Shown one piece after another: positions 39,476 to 48,739 of a stretch of 64,000 nt of DNA. Under the pieces are notes generated by a model. It searched no databases, was not told where the DNA came from, and saw only the letters and a list, made by a program, of their open reading frames with translations. How positions within the stretch are numbered: position 1 is the stretch's first letter; every line of letters starts with the position of its first letter. This DNA is from Gemmatirosa kalamazoonensis (GTDB lineage: Bacteria > Gemmatimonadota > Gemmatimonadetes > Gemmatimonadales > Gemmatimonadaceae), in contig NZ_CP007129.1 in the NCBI RefSeq assembly GCF_000522985.1, forward strand, positions 372,001 to 436,000, in the 5' to 3' direction. Position numbers and translations under genes: made by a program.

Positions 39476-42118
39476 ATGAGCCGAGTGCAGGGGATCGCCG
39501 CCCGACTCCGCGCCGCGCTGTTCCGGCGCGCCGCGGACCGCCGCGCGCGGGAGGAGTTCGCGTTCCACCTGGAGATGGAGACCGCGGCCAACGTGCGTCG
39601 CGGCCTCCCCCCCGACGAGGCCCGGCGCCGCGCCCTCGCCGCGTTCGGCGGCGTGGAGCGCCACCGCGACGACCTGCGCGACCTGCGCGCCGCGCTCCCC
39701 GACGATCTCGGACGCGACGTGCGCATCGCGTGGCGCTCGCTGCGCGCGACTCCCGCGTTCATGCTCGCCACCGTCGCGTCGCTCGCCTTCGGCCTCGCGC
39801 TCGCCGCGTCTGCGGCGGCGGTCGTGCACGCGTACCTCGGCCGCACGGCGCTGCCGTACGCGCACGCCGACCGGCTCTACCACGTGATGTACGCGCCGCC
39901 GGGACCGGTCGAGCCGCACGGCATGTCGACGCTCGACTGGTCCACCCTGCGCGACGTGGTGCGCGACGCCGTCACCTCGCAGGGCGTGAGCTACACGCTC
40001 GGCGAGGGCGCCGACGCGCAGGCGCTCGCCGCGCTCCGCGTGTCGTTCGGCTTCGTGCGCGGGCTCGGCGTGCGCGCGACGATCGGCCGGCCGCTCGTCG
40101 CCGACGACTACGCGTCGGACGCCGACGGACGCGCGGCGCTCATCAGCGACGCGCTCTGGCGCGGGCGCTTCGGCGCCGACTCGCGCGTGCTCGGCCGCCG
40201 CCTGCGCGTCGAGGTCGAGGGGCACCCGGGCACGTTCGAGACGCTGCACGTCGTCGGCGTGATGGCGCCCGGCTTCTGGTACGGGCGCACGAGCGACACG
40301 CAGGTCGACGTGCTCACGCCGCTGCGCACGCACGCCACGACGTACGTCGTACGGCTGCGCGACGACGTGACGGCCGAGCGCGCGGCGCGGCGCCTAACGG
40401 AAGCGGTGCGCGCCGCCGCGACGTGGATCCCGCCGGACTGGCCCGGCGTCACCGTCGAGGGGATGCAGGAGCGCTACGTGCGCGAGATGCGTCCGCGGCT
40501 CGTCGCGATCGCGGTGGCGGCGGGGCTCGTGCTCGCCATCACGTGCGTCAACGTCGCCGTGCTCACTCTGCTGCGCACCATGCGGCGCGGCCGCGACGTC
40601 GCGGTGCGCGTGATGCTCGGCGCCGGCCGCGCGTCGCTGCTGCGACTGCATCTGGTGGAGATCGGCATGCTGTGCGGCGCCGCGCTCGCCGGCGGCGTCG
40701 CGCTCACCGCCGCCGCGCTGCGCGCGCTCGCGCCGCGCATCGAGGCCGAGCTGGGGAAGCCCGCGCCGGCCGGCCCGTCGGCGATCGGCGTCGACTGGAC
40801 GGTGCTCGCGCTCGTCGGCGGCGTGAGCGTGCTCATCGCGCTGCTGCTGGCGTGCGTCCCCGCGCTGCTGCCCTGGCAGCGGCGGCTCGCCGAGTCGCTC
40901 CGCCGCGCCGGACGCGCCGGCAGCGACGGACCCGTGATGCGGCGCGCGCGCTCCACGCTCGTCGCGCTCGAGATCGCGGGCTCGCTCGCGCTCGTCGCGG
41001 GCTGCGGGCTGATGATCCGCAGCGCCGTGGCGATGATCGGCACGGACCTCGGCTACGACACGGCGGGGATCGTGCGCGTGCGCGTGCGGCTGCGACAGGA
41101 GACGTACCCCGACGCGGCCGCGTTCCAGCGCTTCTACGCGCGGCTGGCCGAGCGGATGGCCGCCGCGGGCGGCCCGCGTCCCGCGTACGCGAGCTGGCCG
41201 CCCTACGCTGACGTGCCGACGCAGACGGTGGACGTGGACGGGCGCGCCGGTGAAGGCGTCGCCGGCGGCGTCGTGGCCGTCGGCGACGGCTACTTCGCGA
41301 CGCTCGGCATCGCGCTGCGGAAGGGCCGCGCGCTCACCGACGCCGACCGCGTCGAGAGCGAGCCCGTCGCCGTCGTGAGCGAGACGCTCGCGCGGCGGCT
41401 GTGGCCTAACGGCGACGCGCTCGGCCGGCGCATCCGGCCGCACGAGACGATGCAGCCCGGCGCCGCGCCCGCGCCGTGGCGCACCGTGGTCGGCGTCGTC
41501 GCCGACGTGCGGCAGACCTACGTCGACGCCGACGCGAACGACGTCTACATCCCGTACTATCAGAACCCGCAGCTCGGCCGCTACGGCTCGTTCTACCTGC
41601 GCGCACGCGGCACGTCGCCCGGCGCCGCCGCGCGGATGGCCCGGGCCGCCGTCGCCGAGGTCGACCCGCGCGCGATCGTGCGCGACGTGCTCACGGTCGA
41701 CGACGAGGATCGGGAGCTGGCGAGCGCGCGGTTCATGACGTCGCTGCTGACGGGCTTCGCGGCGTTCGCGGCGCTGCTCGCGACGCTGGGCATCTACGGC
41801 GTGGTCGCCTACGCGGCGCAGCAGCGGCAGCGCGAGCTCGCGATTCGCATGGCGGTCGGCGCGACGCGTCCTGCGGTGGTCGGGCTGTTCGTGCGCGACA
41901 GCGGCGCGGTGGTCGGCGCCGGGCTCGCGCTCGGCGTGCTCGCGGCGCTCGCGGTGGCGCGCGTGCTGGCGCACCAGCTCTACGGCGTGGGCCCGTTCGA
42001 CGCCGCCACGCTCGCCGCATCGTGCGCGGTGATGGCCGTCGTCGCGCTCGTGGCGGTGTGGTGGCCGGCGAGCCGCGCGACGGCGCGGAGCCCGGTGACC
42101 GTCCTCAGCGAGCCGTGA
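39476..42118 (+). CDS. ADOP-type ABC transporter permease (MacB/FtsX fold)
   Basis: 880-residue permease starting MSRVQGIAARLRAALFRRAA, with GAGGGAGG upstream. The N-terminal charged domain (EEFAFHLEMETAANVRRGL) is of the ADOP type. After helix one, a periplasmic domain, FtsX block (AITCVNVAVLTLLRTMRRGR), second periplasmic domain and final FtsX block (GIYGVVAYAAQQRQRELAIR) follow. It is more distant from the permeases at 1-5367 than they are from each other. No PadR gene is adjacent. The stop overlaps the start of the sialidase-like gene at GTGA, so the two are co-translated. It may help export or assemble that secreted protein. Confidence 0.9.
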   Translation: MSRVQGIAARLRAALFRRAADRRAREEFAFHLEMETAANVRRGLPPDEARRRALAAFGGVERHRDDLRDLRAALPDDLGRDVRIAWRSLRATPAFMLATVASLAFGLALAASAAAVVHAYLGRTALPYAHADRLYHVMYAPPGPVEPHGMSTLDWSTLRDVVRDAVTSQGVSYTLGEGADAQALAALRVSFGFVRGLGVRATIGRPLVADDYASDADGRAALISDALWRGRFGADSRVLGRRLRVEVEGHPGTFETLHVVGVMAPGFWYGRTSDTQVDVLTPLRTHATTYVVRLRDDVTAERAARRLTEAVRAAATWIPPDWPGVTVEGMQERYVREMRPRLVAIAVAAGLVLAITCVNVAVLTLLRTMRRGRDVAVRVMLGAGRASLLRLHLVEIGMLCGAALAGGVALTAAALRALAPRIEAELGKPAPAGPSAIGVDWTVLALVGGVSVLIALLLACVPALLPWQRRLAESLRRAGRAGSDGPVMRRARSTLVALEIAGSLALVAGCGLMIRSAVAMIGTDLGYDTAGIVRVRVRLRQETYPDAAAFQRFYARLAERMAAAGGPRPAYASWPPYADVPTQTVDVDGRAGEGVAGGVVAVGDGYFATLGIALRKGRALTDADRVESEPVAVVSETLARRLWPNGDALGRRIRPHETMQPGAAPAPWRTVVGVVADVRQTYVDADANDVYIPYYQNPQLGRYGSFYLRARGTSPGAAARMARAAVAEVDPRAIVRDVLTVDDEDRELASARFMTSLLTGFAAFAALLATLGIYGVVAYAAQQRQRELAIRMAVGATRPAVVGLFVRDSGAVVGAGLALGVLAALAVARVLAHQLYGVGPFDAATLAASCAVMAVVALVAVWWPASRATARSPVTVLSEP

Positions 42119-44091
42119 CGCGACGTCTTCTCCGCGCGTGTCTCGCGCTCGGTCTTCTGGTGCCTGACACGGTCCATTCGCAGCGCGTCGTGCGCGCGGA
42201 ATTCGTCTACGAGTCCGCGCCGTTCCCATCGGCGCACGCGTCGACGATCGTGGAGACGCGCGACGGGCTCGCCGCGGCGTGGTTCGGCGGTACGCGCGAG
42301 CGGGCGCCGGACGTCGGGATCTGGCTGTCGCGCTACGCGCACGGCGCGTGGACCGCGCCCGTCGAGGTGGCCACCGGCGTGGAGACCGACGGCACGCGCT
42401 ACCCGTGCTGGAACCCGGTGCTGTTCCGCATGCCCGACGGCACGCTCTCGCTGTTCTACAAGGTGGGTCCGAGCCCCGCGGAGTGGTGGGGCATGGTGCG
42501 CACGTCGCGCGACGAGGGGCGCACGTGGAGCGCGGCGCAGCGGCTGCCCGACGGGATACTCGGCCCGATCAAGAACAAGCCGGTGCGTCTCCCGTCGGGA
42601 ACGATCCTCGCCCCGAGCAGCACCGAGTCGAGCGACGCGCCGAGCGTGTGGCGCGCGCACGTGGAGCGCTCGACCGACGGCGGCCGGAGCTGGACCGCGG
42701 TCCCGCTGCCCGAGCCGCGCGACGGCGCCGCGATCGAGGCGATCCAGCCGAGCCTCCTGCTGCACGCGGGCGGGCGCGTGCAGGCGTTAGGCCGCACACG
42801 GTCGGGGCGCATCTTCGAGAGCTGGTCGGACGATGGCGGTCGGTCGTGGAGCCCGGTCGCGCTCACAAGCCTCCCCAACCCGAACGCCGGCATCGACGCG
42901 GTGACGCTCGGCGACGGCCGCCAGCTCCTCGTGTACAACCGGTCCACCGACGCGCGCACGCCGCTGAACGTCGCGCTCTCCACCGACGGCGCGTCGTGGA
43001 CCGACGCGCTCGTGCTCGAGCGCGACCCGGGCGAGTACTCGTACCCGGCCGTGATCCAGACGTCGGACGGGCTGGTGCACGTGACGTACACGTGGAAGCG
43101 CGAGCGCATCAAGCACGTCGTCATCGATCCCGCCGCGCGATCGTCCGAGGACGCGCCGCGCGTCGCGTTCGCCTCGAAGCGCGACGGCAACTGGGAGATC
43201 TACCTCGCCGACGCCGACGGCCGCATGTCGACGAGGCTCACGACGCGCGCGGACCAGGACCGCTTCCCACTCCCGTCGCCCGACGGCTCGCGCATCGCGT
43301 TCGCCTCGCAGGTGAGCGGCACGCACTGGGAGCTCTGGGTGATGGACGCCGACGGCCGCGGCGCACGGCCGCTGTTCTCACCGATCGTCGCGAAGAGCAC
43401 GCGCGAGTGGTCGCCGGACGGCACGCGCATCCTCGTCACGTCGCAGCGCGACGGCGACGCCGAGGTCTACGTGGTACGCGCCGACGGGTCGGGCGCCGAG
43501 CGCCTGACGCGTTCACCCGGCGACGACCGCGACCCGTCGTGGTCGCCCGACGGCTCACGCATCGTGCTCTCGTCGACGCGCGACGGGAACGCGGAGATCT
43601 ACGTCATGAACGCCGACGGCAGCGGCGGGACGCGTCTCACGACGAACGCCGCGCAGGACGCCGAGCCCACGTGGTCGCCCGACGGCGCGTGGATCGCGTT
43701 CGTGTCGAACCGCGACGGCAACCGGGAGCTCTACCGCGTGCGCCCCAACGGACGCGACCTGGAGCGGCTGACGAACGATGCCGCCGAGGACGACGTGCCC
43801 GTGTGGTCGCCGGACGGCACGCGGCTCGCCTTCCAGGCCACGCGCGGCACGAACTACGACATCGAGGTCGTGCGCGTCGCGGACCACCGGCGCACGCGCC
43901 TAACGGTCGACGCGGCATACGACGGGCAGCTCGCCTGGTCGCCCGACGGCGAGCGGCTCGCGTTCATCTCCGCGCGCGGCGGCGCCGACGCGCTCTACGT
44001 GATGAACGCCGATGGGACGGGCGTGCGAGTGGTCTCCGCGGATCCGGCGCTCGACCCGCGGTGGGTGCGCGCTCAGCGCTCGAATCGATAG
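42115..44091 (+). CDS. Secreted sialidase-like (BNR) protein fused to TolB-like propeller
   Basis: 658-residue secreted protein from GTG 42115, signal peptide about 1-25. Residues about 25-345 form a BNR_2-type propeller with FGGTRERAPDVG near the start and Asp boxes in SRDEGRTW, STDGGRSW and SDDGGRSW. From about 350 to the end, seven PD40/TolB-like repeats follow (VAFASKRDGNWEIYLADADG; SWSPDGSRIVLSSTRDGNAE; TWSPDGAWIAFVSNRDGNRE). The two propellers are a single unbroken frame. Family knowledge: BNR_2 proteins include exo-sialidases and other glycan hydrolases; TolB-like propellers bind partners. The fused arrangement is unusual. The stop overlaps the opposing regulator gene by 19 bases. Confidence 0.85.
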   Translation: MTRRLLRACLALGLLVPDTVHSQRVVRAEFVYESAPFPSAHASTIVETRDGLAAAWFGGTRERAPDVGIWLSRYAHGAWTAPVEVATGVETDGTRYPCWNPVLFRMPDGTLSLFYKVGPSPAEWWGMVRTSRDEGRTWSAAQRLPDGILGPIKNKPVRLPSGTILAPSSTESSDAPSVWRAHVERSTDGGRSWTAVPLPEPRDGAAIEAIQPSLLLHAGGRVQALGRTRSGRIFESWSDDGGRSWSPVALTSLPNPNAGIDAVTLGDGRQLLVYNRSTDARTPLNVALSTDGASWTDALVLERDPGEYSYPAVIQTSDGLVHVTYTWKRERIKHVVIDPAARSSEDAPRVAFASKRDGNWEIYLADADGRMSTRLTTRADQDRFPLPSPDGSRIAFASQVSGTHWELWVMDADGRGARPLFSPIVAKSTREWSPDGTRILVTSQRDGDAEVYVVRADGSGAERLTRSPGDDRDPSWSPDGSRIVLSSTRDGNAEIYVMNADGSGGTRLTTNAAQDAEPTWSPDGAWIAFVSNRDGNRELYRVRPNGRDLERLTNDAAEDDVPVWSPDGTRLAFQATRGTNYDIEVVRVADHRRTRLTVDAAYDGQLAWSPDGERLAFISARGGADALYVMNADGTGVRVVSADPALDPRWVRAQRSNR

Positions 44092-44771: not shown

Positions 44772-44890
44772 TGCCTTTCGTGCTCGACAGGATGCACAGG
44801 ACGGACAGGATGAACTGCACCACCAACACCAAAGACATTGCCTTTGTTGTCGGTGTCGAAAGGCATCCTGTCCGTCCTGTTCATCCTGTC
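44772..44890. repeat. Nested inverted repeat of CAGGACGGA-type units, copy D
   Basis: Outer arms TGCCTTTCG (44772-44780) and CGAAAGGCA (44858-44866) enclose a left arm with ACAGGATG and ACAGGACGG units (44786-44814). The right arm carries CATCCTGTCC units (44864-44890). Its right end contains the stop codon of the kinase gene. The element separates two genes of one two-component operon. Confidence 0.88.
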
Positions 44891-46691
44891 ACAACGCCAC
44901 GCGGCACGTCCTGTCGTTCGTGCACGCGCGCGGCGGCCGAGGGCGCGTCCATCCTGTCCGCCGGCAGCTCGACGACGAACGTGGCGCCGGCGCGGCCATC
45001 GTCGTCGGCGACCCACGCGCGTCCGCCATGCTGCGACACGACGTCGTGCACGATTGCGAGCCCGATGCCGCTTCCCGACGTGTGCCCCGCCGTGCGGCCG
45101 CGCTGGTACGGACGCCAGATCGCCTGCCGGTCGGCGGCGGGCACGCCGGGGCCCTCGTCGTGCACCTCGAGTCGCACCCGGTCGCCCGTCGATCGCACGC
45201 GCACGTGCACCGTCTGGCCGGTGGGGCCGTACTTCACCGCGTTGTCGAGGAGGTTGAGCAGCACGTGGCGGAGCGCGCCCTCCTGCAGGCGCAGCGTGGG
45301 CGTCGGCTCGGCGTCGCACGTCACCGTCGCGCGCCGCGCCGCGGCGAGCGGACGGAACTCGTCGACGATGCGCGCCGTCTCCGCGGACACGTCCTCCGGC
45401 GCGCGCGACACGTCGCCGCCGAGCCGACGGCCGACGCCGGAGAAGCGGAGCACGCGCTCCACGAGGTGGCCCAGGCGCGTCGTCTCGCGCTCCACGTTGT
45501 CGAGCGACCAGCGGCGCTGCTCCTCGGTGGTGAAGCGGCCGAGGCGCAGCGTCTCGAGGTAGACGCGCATCTGCGCGAGCGGCGTGCGCAGCTCGTGCGA
45601 GATGGAGCTCACGAAGTCGGCCCGCATGCGCGCGAGCTCGCCCTCGCGGCGGATCTGCCCGAGCGCGACGAGCGCGAGCGCCGCGGACAGGCCGAGGATG
45701 CCTAACAGGAACGGGAGGCGCGACTTCGGCAGGCCGCCGATGACGAGCGTGCCCGCGAGCTCGGGGCGGATCTGCGCGCGCACGAGCACCGAACCGTAGG
45801 TCTTCGGCAGCCGCGTCGTGTCGTCGAGCGTCCATCGCCCGGACCCCGGGTCGGAGTCGAACAGCGGCGTGCCGTGCGCGTCGCTCACCTGGAGACGCAA
45901 CACCTCGCGCGGCCGGCGCCCGCGCGCGAACGTCTCGGGGAGCAGCGCGCGCTCGTTCATCACCTCGCGGAACAGCGCCTCGAGCGACGACCGCGGGTAC
46001 TCGGCGCCGTACACCAGCGTGTCGCCCCACGACGTCGGCATGACGGTGTACACGAGCAGCCGCGGCACGCCGTCGTACGAAGCGAGCACGACCGGGAAGT
46101 AGCCGAGCCGTCCGGCGCCGCGCACCTGGCGCGAGATCGTGTCGTTGATCCACCGCCGCTCGCCGGCCGTGTAATCGACGAGGCGCCCATGCATCATGTG
46201 GTCGGCCATCATGTGGCCCATCATGCGCGGCGAGTGCGCGACGAACTCCTGCGGCAGCGGGCGGTCCACCTCCCATCCCTCGGTCGGATCGGGGTGCGTG
46301 TTCACGCCGAGTCCGAGCGTGTCGCTGCCGAGCTGCCAGCCGAAGAAGATGAGCGGGCTGCCGCCGTAGCGCGGGCGGTGGCAGTAGCAGCGCGGGTCCC
46401 ATGGCAGGTAGTGCGCGAGGTCCGCCGCGGGGGGATGCGGTGGCTCGTGTGCACGCCCTCGCCGTGGTTCACCGCGCCGAGCGCCTCGCTCGTCGCGCGG
46501 CCGATCGCGTCCTGCACGTGCTGCGCGTAGCTCCACGCCGCGAACCCCGCGTAGTCGCGGAGCGCGTGCTCGGCGACCTCGCGCTGCCGCCGCACGGCGC
46601 GCGTCGCCTCGAGCAGGCCGAGCGCGGTGAGGCCGATGCTCGCGAGCAGCAGCAGCGTCGGCCAGCGGACGGCGGGGAGGCGGGGGGGCAT
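44881..46691 (-). CDS. Sensor histidine kinase with Met/His-rich periplasmic domain, frame disrupted at G6
   Basis: Kinase of about 600 residues. Helix one is at residues 11-27 (PTLLLLASIGLTALGLL). A periplasmic domain follows with CYCHRP (102-107) and a cluster HSPRMMGHMMADHMMHG (about 153-169), both typical of copper sites. Helix two is near LPFLLGILGLSAALALVALG, then HisKA (His in SSISHELRTPLAQM) and HATPase (LLDNAVKYGP; GSGIGLAIVHDVV). The N-terminal 88 residues and the rest are in different frames. The break is at a G6 run on the + strand (46429-46434), and one extra base restores the frame. The gene stops inside repeat D. The divergent gene is a multicopper oxidase, which supports copper sensing. 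Confidence 0.78.
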
Positions 46692-46852: not shown

Positions 46853-48739
46853 ATGTGGAGCTCGTTCGTCGCGGCCGGCGTCGTCGCGCTCGGCGCTCGC
46901 CACCCGGCTTCCGGAACACCCGCCGCCGACTGCGCGGGGCTGCCACGCGTCGAGGCGCCCGCGGCGGCGCCCAACGACAACCGTGTCGCCGCGGGCCGGC
47001 TGCGGGAGGGCGTGCTGACGGTGCACCTCGTCGCGCGCGGGGTCAGCTGGCGTCCGGACGGACCGCGCGGCTGCGCGTTAGGCGTACGCGCGTTCGCGGA
47101 GGAAGGGAAGACGGCACGCATCCCCGGTCCGCTCGTCCGCGTCCGCGCCGGCACCGAGGTGCGCGCGACCGTGCGCAACGCGCTCGCGTCGCCGCTGTGG
47201 GTGCGGGGGCTGCGGGATCGCGCCGACAGCACGTTAGACTCGGTGCTCGTGGCGCCCGGCGCGACGCGCGAGTTCCGCTTCCGCGCGACTGCGCTCGGCG
47301 CGTGGTACTACTGGGCCGGCGCCGTCGATGCGCGCGTCCCCGTGTCCGACGTGAACGGCCAGCTGGTCGGCGCGCTCGTCGTCGATCCGGCGAATGGGCC
47401 GCGGCTCGGCGACCGCGTGTTCGTGATGACACGCTGGACGCCCGACGGGCAGATCGGCACGGCGACGTTCCAGCTCAACGCGCTCAATGGGCTGTCGTGG
47501 CCGCACACGGAGCGTCTCGCGTACGCGGTCGGTGACTCGGTGCGCTGGCACGTGATCAACGCGTCGGACGAGCTGCACATGATGCACCTGCACGGCTTCT
47601 ACTACCGCGTGATCGCGCGCGGCGACGCGGCGCACGACAGCGCGCTCACGAGCACGATCAAGCCGATGGCGGTGACGATCGCGACGCGGCGCGGCGAGTG
47701 GATGTCGATCGTGTGGTCGCCGGACCGGGCGGGCAACTGGCTCTTCCACTGTCACATCCTCGCCCACATGAGCGCCGCGCAGCGGCTCGGCGCCACGGAC
47801 GGCCATGAGGCGCACGACATGGCGGGCCTGCTGCTCGGCATCACCGTGCGCCCGCCACCGGGTGCGCACACGGCCGCGGCGACGGCGCGGCCGGCGCGCG
47901 TGCTGCAACTCTACGCGGACACGCGGCCGCGCGTGTTCGGCGAGCGGCCGGGCTTCGGCTTCGTGCTGCAGGACGGGGCGCGCACACCGGCGCCGGACTC
48001 AATCCGTATCCCCGGCATGCCGCTCGTCCTCACGCGCGGGGAGCCCGTGCAGATCACGGTGCACAACCGACTGCCGACGCCGATCGGCGTGCACTGGCAC
48101 GGGATAGAGCTGGAGAGCTACTACGACGGCGTCGGCGGATTCAGCGGTGCGGCGGGACGCATCGCACCCATGATCGCGCCCGGGGACTCGTTCATCGCCC
48201 GCATGACGCCGCCCCGCGCGGGGACGTTCATCTACCACGTGCACAGCGAGCGTGGCGACGAGCTGGTGTCGGGTCTCTACGGGCCGCTGCTCGTGCTGGA
48301 GCCCGGGGCGCCGCTCGACGCGCGCGTGGAGCGGCTGCTCGTGATCGCCACCGGCGGGCCGGGCGCCGACGCGCCGACCTTCGTCAACGGGAAGGCGACG
48401 CCCGACACGCTGTCGCTGGTCGCCGGCACGCGCTATCGCCTGCGCGTGATCGACATCTCGGCGAACGACGCGCACGCGCTCGCGCTGCGCGAGCCGGGCG
48501 GGGCGCTCGCGACGTGGCGAGTGATTGGGCGCGACGGGCGCGACGTGCCCGCCGCCCAGGCCGTCCCGCAACCCGCGCGGGAGAACACGGCGGCAGGCGT
48601 GACGCGCGACTTCGAGCTCACCCCCACCGCACCGGGCGACTACGCGCTGAGTATCGCGCTCATCGTCGCCGGGCGACCGACGGCGCACACGACCGTCGTG
48701 CCCGTGCGGGTCAGAGCGTCGCCGTCAGGGGATCGCTAG
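46853..48739 (+). CDS. Four-domain multicopper oxidase with permuted copper-domain order
   Basis: 628-residue protein; GGGGAGG precedes ATG 46853. There are four cupredoxin-like domains. Domain 1 (about 85-180) is a copper-free first-domain type: LWVRG where HWHG would be, YYWAG where YHSH would be. Domain 2 (about 215-335) has last-domain ligands His242, His245, His247 and His299-Cys300-His301, His305. Domain 3 (about 365-485) has first-domain ligands His414/His416 (HWHG) and His462/His464 (YHVH). Domain 4 (490 to end) has none. So the full type 1 plus trinuclear set exists, but the last-domain motifs come before the first-domain motifs. The N-terminal hydrophobic segment suggests export. 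The substrate is unknown; Cu(I) detoxification is plausible. Confidence 0.85.
   Translation: MWSSFVAAGVVALGARHPASGTPAADCAGLPRVEAPAAAPNDNRVAAGRLREGVLTVHLVARGVSWRPDGPRGCALGVRAFAEEGKTARIPGPLVRVRAGTEVRATVRNALASPLWVRGLRDRADSTLDSVLVAPGATREFRFRATALGAWYYWAGAVDARVPVSDVNGQLVGALVVDPANGPRLGDRVFVMTRWTPDGQIGTATFQLNALNGLSWPHTERLAYAVGDSVRWHVINASDELHMMHLHGFYYRVIARGDAAHDSALTSTIKPMAVTIATRRGEWMSIVWSPDRAGNWLFHCHILAHMSAAQRLGATDGHEAHDMAGLLLGITVRPPPGAHTAAATARPARVLQLYADTRPRVFGERPGFGFVLQDGARTPAPDSIRIPGMPLVLTRGEPVQITVHNRLPTPIGVHWHGIELESYYDGVGGFSGAAGRIAPMIAPGDSFIARMTPPRAGTFIYHVHSERGDELVSGLYGPLLVLEPGAPLDARVERLLVIATGGPGADAPTFVNGKATPDTLSLVAGTRYRLRVIDISANDAHALALREPGGALATWRVIGRDGRDVPAAQAVPQPARENTAAGVTRDFELTPTAPGDYALSIALIVAGRPTAHTTVVPVRVRASPSGDR

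Follow-up and report, generated by a model that had tools for sequence, protein, structure and literature searches.

Within the window examined here, a stretch of 64,000 nucleotides of the Gemmatirosa kalamazoonensis genome (7.48 Mb in four contigs), one gene encodes a 628-aa multicopper oxidase whose copper motifs raise the question of how the chain is built and where its copper sites would form. Three-domain laccases, CueO, CotA, and ascorbate oxidase carry identical ligand motifs, but in three domains and in the opposite order (HWHG/YHxH before HxxHxH/HCHxxxH). The reading favored here, with a probability of about 0.86, is that the protein is a blue multicopper oxidase of four domains, derived from a two-domain oxidase by tandem duplication, with one chain forming one complete site and the trinuclear cluster lying across its second and third domains (d2 and d3).

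Copper-ligand motifs and their order

The motifs follow one another along the chain as HMMHLHG, HCHILAH, HWHG, and YHVH (Table 1), and the initial annotation, which had reported last-domain motifs ahead of first-domain motifs, placed all four exactly as they stand in the 628-aa translation. The permuted order is real because Pfam likewise puts the last-domain-type Cu-oxidase_2 (best at residues 207–308) ahead of the first-domain-type Cu-oxidase_3 (best at 386–483); a further Cu-oxidase_3 match was located in d1 by the genome search. The full ligand set of the superfamily (HxH, HxH, HxxHxH, and HCHxxxH) is present, and with several cupredoxin domains found by both Pfam and the structure model, the protein has the features of a multicopper oxidase. 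The ATG at 46853 is a plausible start, since the stretch before it, GGGGAGGCGAGG, is rich in purines. The N-terminus is hydrophobic (WSSFVAAGVVALGA), and residues 1–20 have a pLDDT below 50 in the whole-protein AlphaFold2 model; from this N-terminus, the oxidase is probably secreted.

Table 1. Features of the four-domain oxidase gene and its product, in window coordinates.
Feature	Residues	Position	Strand	Description or basis
Four-domain multicopper oxidase gene	628 aa	46853..48739	+	Translation, motifs, Pfam, genome search
Probable signal peptide	~1–25	46853..46927	+	Hydrophobic N-terminus, by inspection only
d1	41–186	46973..47410	+	Degenerate first-domain-type cupredoxin, without copper ligands here; pairs best with d3
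d2	187–336	47411..47860	+	Predicted type 1 copper and half of trinuclear site
HMMHLHG	242–248	47576..47596	+	Three His in 80/80 aligned sequences
HCHILAH	299–305	47747..47767	+	Invariant, 80/80 aligned sequences
M323	323	47819..47821	+	Candidate axial type 1 copper ligand after extended loop (alternative L326); M in 79/80
d3	345–492	47885..48328	+	First-domain type; predicted other half of trinuclear site
HWHG	414–417	48092..48103	+	Invariant, 80/80 aligned sequences
YHVH	461–464	48233..48244	+	H462 in 80/80, H464 in 79/80
d4	493–622	48329..48718	+	Ligand-free d2-type copy; pairs best with d2

Conservation was read from an alignment of 80 sequences, consisting of the window protein and 79 loci from the best 80 of 550 relatives; locus L042, which has an internal stop, was omitted. 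All ten ligand histidines and C300 are invariant in this alignment of the best 80 of 550, with the sole exception of H464 (79/80), which is replaced by arginine in relative L089, and no non-ligand His or Cys reaches an occupancy of 50% or more. By analogy with laccases, H242 would be a type 1 copper ligand and H245 and H247 trinuclear ligands, while C300 and H305 would serve the type 1 copper and H299 and H301 the trinuclear site. The axial position of the type 1 copper could be either M323 or L326, each of which occurs in 79 of the 80 aligned sequences (best 80 of 550 relatives). The loop from HCHxxxH to M323 (window positions 47747–47821) differs in length (9–41 residues) among the best 80 of 550 relatives, and its tail, M-x-G-L, resembles the M-F-G-M of the two-domain paralogue L002.

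Distribution of the family

Five places in the host genome match most of the query, namely the window gene and four paralogues on contig C2, all four of which have the same permuted order. The order, with all ligands intact, was found in 28/28 rows of an alignment of the window protein and 27 relatives (the four paralogues, the rest from same-order genomes). Across 84,980 species genomes, 550 relatives of the query were confirmed, and the order recurs in all 80 rows of a second alignment, for which the best 80 of the 550 were retained. The search for the same order that the initial annotation had proposed thus returned it in the four paralogues and in 80 loci elsewhere (best 80 of 550), and its recurrence in both alignments excludes a chance origin. 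An assembly or frame artefact was also ruled out, as the order recurs across many genomes. A strict motif pattern missed 5 of the 80 loci, although the alignment showed their ligands to be intact save for the H464 replacement in L089.

As labelled in their records, the best 80 of the 550 relatives are mostly from Gemmatimonadota, with 15 from Acidobacteriota and two from Balneolaceae (Balneolota), and single loci among these 80 come from Steroidobacter, Rokuibacteriota, Opitutaceae, and the isolate Flavihumibacter profundi. The Opitutaceae member (L106, 7368–9824) has an 818-aa frame with additional N-terminal sequence. Within the phylum of the window genome, 88 of 298 genomes have a match to d2-d3 at an E value of 1e-40 or better; complete matches in these 298 genomes exceed 300 bits, and the family frames that contain them mostly run to 600–740 aa. 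Among 200 genomes of the Steroidobacter family, one contiguous d2-d3 match was found, in a MAG (L074), the other matches, to ordinary oxidases, being pieces of at most 92 bits. The L074 match is on a 6.3-kb MAG contig, and a binning error is possible. The family tree has long branches and groups sequences by phylum with some mixing, from which horizontal transfer is not claimed because MAG bins can be contaminated. In a search of plasmid proteins, all matches were below 60% identity, and six records cover at least 80% of the query in one place, joined from separate pieces among the matches listed.

Domain relationships and structure models

The AlphaFold2 model of the whole protein, a monomer prediction that the initial annotation had called for, is confident (pLDDT 88.9, pTM 0.90) and contains four cupredoxin (beta) domains per chain. 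Profile-profile comparison by hhalign paired these domains alternately, with scores of 70 for d1-d3 and 58 for d2-d4, followed by 55 for d2-d3, 39 for d1-d4, 35 for d1-d2, and 29 for d3-d4. In the d1-d3 alignment, the invariant G119 lies opposite G417 and Y153 opposite Y461, with the histidines lost in d1. A His occurs at residue 118, beside G119, in 39% of relatives in the 80-sequence alignment (best 80 of 550), and it may be a relic.

Two-domain oxidases (for example 2zwn, 3gdc, 7rab, and paralogue L002) have the normal motif order within the chain and build their cluster between subunits. Each half of the window protein aligns end to end with such enzymes, although they have two domains per chain and the window protein has four. 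By sequence, d1d2 and d3d4 each align in a single stretch, with 100–124 bits for L002 and L037; d1 falls on the first domain of the two-domain enzymes, and d4 matches their second domain weakly (up to 26 bits). Against each of the nine ordinary oxidases scored, d2d3 instead gave two separate stretches whose order was reversed. VIA structural comparison of the separate halves gave matches to two-domain enzymes, to nitrite reductases, and to 6vow in its N-terminal part, with d1-d2 superposing on solved two-domain oxidases at Z ~25. The alternating domain pairs, together with the match of each half to whole two-domain oxidases, support an AB-AB tandem in which the two copies of a two-domain oxidase lost complementary ligands. 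This bears out the earlier proposal of two tandem two-domain units with complementary halves, including a degenerate first-domain copy at the N-terminus and a ligand-free domain at the C-terminus, as both d1 and d4 lack copper ligands in the window protein.

In three-domain oxidases, the trinuclear site lies between the first and third domains. AlphaFold2 modeled d2-d3 alone with a pLDDT of 86.7 and a pTM of 0.84, and VIA superposed this model on three-domain oxidases at Z ~14–17.5 over 219–249 residues (3.6–4.6 Å), including CueO 1kv7 (Z 16.6, 231 residues, 3.9 Å, chain range 44–516) and 6vow (226 residues, 3.6 Å, range 4–423). The d2-d3 model thus spans domains 1–3 of these enzymes and agrees with their catalytic domain pair, and from the outer limits of the ranges, we infer that d2 and d3 would correspond to the first and third domains. 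The initial annotation had left the trinuclear site either between d2 and d3 or between subunits; the superposition favors d2-d3 of one chain, and nothing requires the second option. A site formed by d2 of one chain and d3 of another, in a domain-swapped or higher oligomer, would follow the two-domain oxidases in placing the cluster between subunits, but it is very unlikely, since d2 and d3 modeled in one chain already pack as laccase domains 1 and 3 do, without need of a partner chain.

The d3-d4 half also superposes on the first 268 residues of three-domain 6vow (Z 24.6, 245 residues, 2.7 Å), and laccases are among the Foldseek matches, as would be expected if the protein had come from a three-domain laccase by circular permutation and gain of a domain, with the same catalytic site and no two-domain tandem. 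This origin is less probable still: both halves give an unbroken alignment with two-domain enzymes, the d1d2 alignment splits on three-domain ones, and the best profile scores join d1 to d3 and d2 to d4.

The best Foldseek matches of the full-length model are factor V, factor VIII, and ceruloplasmin, with MnxG (9bxa) at rank 17; the query TM-score (TMq) is 0.5–0.6 for six-domain proteins (0.62 for 9bxa) versus ~0.33 for three-domain laccases. The last domain of ceruloplasmin also matches d2 by sequence. Factor V, factor VIII, and ceruloplasmin have six domains, however, and the matches to six-domain proteins have an rmsd of 6.4–9, so the window protein as a whole is not arranged as a plain run of four neighboring domains from the six-domain ring. 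A viral structure library yielded nothing useful.

Proposed active site and relation to known oxidases

Under the favored four-domain reading, tandem duplication of a two-domain oxidase would have given A-B and A'-B', with ligands retained only in B (d2) of the first unit and only in A' (d3) of the second. The type 1 copper would be held in d2 by H242, C300, and H305 with M323 or L326 as the axial residue, and the trinuclear cluster would sit at the d2-d3 interface, bound by H245, H247, H299, and H301 from d2 and H414, H416, H462, and H464 from d3. Substrate would be oxidized at the type 1 copper, from which electrons would travel over the bridge formed by C300 and H299/H301 to the cluster, where O2 would be reduced to water; d1 and d4 may be structural or substrate-side domains. 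Copper binding, the electron path, and oxidase activity are each predicted here from the ligand set and the models. The usual substrate candidates in the superfamily are a metal ion or a phenol.

The genomic context gives no substrate, as crude GC-frame gene calls at eight loci brought out no evident conserved operon or partner. The opposite strand upstream encodes a response regulator and a histidine kinase; downstream are a TauE/SafE protein and a Sortilin-Vps10 protein, the latter on the + strand. The histidine kinase gene (44881–46691, − strand) lies in two frames, with its N-terminal part reaching to ~46451 and the rest starting from 46419, and could be either a broken gene or the product of a sequencing error. 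A BNR_2 (sialidase-like) domain and PD40 beta-propeller repeats share a single frame at 41476–44091 (+ strand). The lack of an evident conserved neighbor in these eight loci would fit a protein with a role in copper binding or structure, its ligands retained for something other than oxidation, but this is the least probable alternative, as the ligand set is complete, its ten His and single Cys being invariant across deep divergence (H464 in 79/80).

The permuted motif order has a precedent in MnxG-like proteins and Fox1, which share the ligand placement: the trinuclear ligands are in domains 2 and 3 in green-algal ferroxidases (Fox1) and in all bacterial six-domain oxidases analyzed, and the bacterial six-domain (MnxG-like) oxidases have a mononuclear site only in domain 2 (PMC3600357). 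Set against this published description, the window protein likewise has its predicted mononuclear site in d2 and its predicted trinuclear ligands in d2 and d3, but it has four domains and ~630 aa, whereas MnxG and Fox1 have six domains and >1200 aa. In ceruloplasmin, the cluster sits between domains 1 and 6 (PMC3600357). It is conceivable, though rather doubtful, that the family represents a four-domain stage between two- and six-domain oxidases, packed unlike the six-domain ring, and that the ligand-free contact of d4 with d1 is what remains of a second cluster since lost.

Multicopper blue proteins have been classed as two-, three-, or six-domain (PMC3600357). In the open literature searched (5.39 million PMC papers), no description of a four-domain multicopper oxidase class, no biochemical work on any family member, and no MnxG structure paper were found. 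The four-domain format is therefore considered new, with the ligand placement already known from MnxG-like proteins and Fox1. A straw-soil study, in which hits were sorted solely by models of two- and three-domain laccases, found Gemmatimonadales to be the richest in laccase genes (PMC12045287); members of the four-domain family could be among those Gemmatimonadales laccases. As a widespread four-domain class, the family would offer a natural test case for the origin of multi-domain oxidases from two-domain ones.
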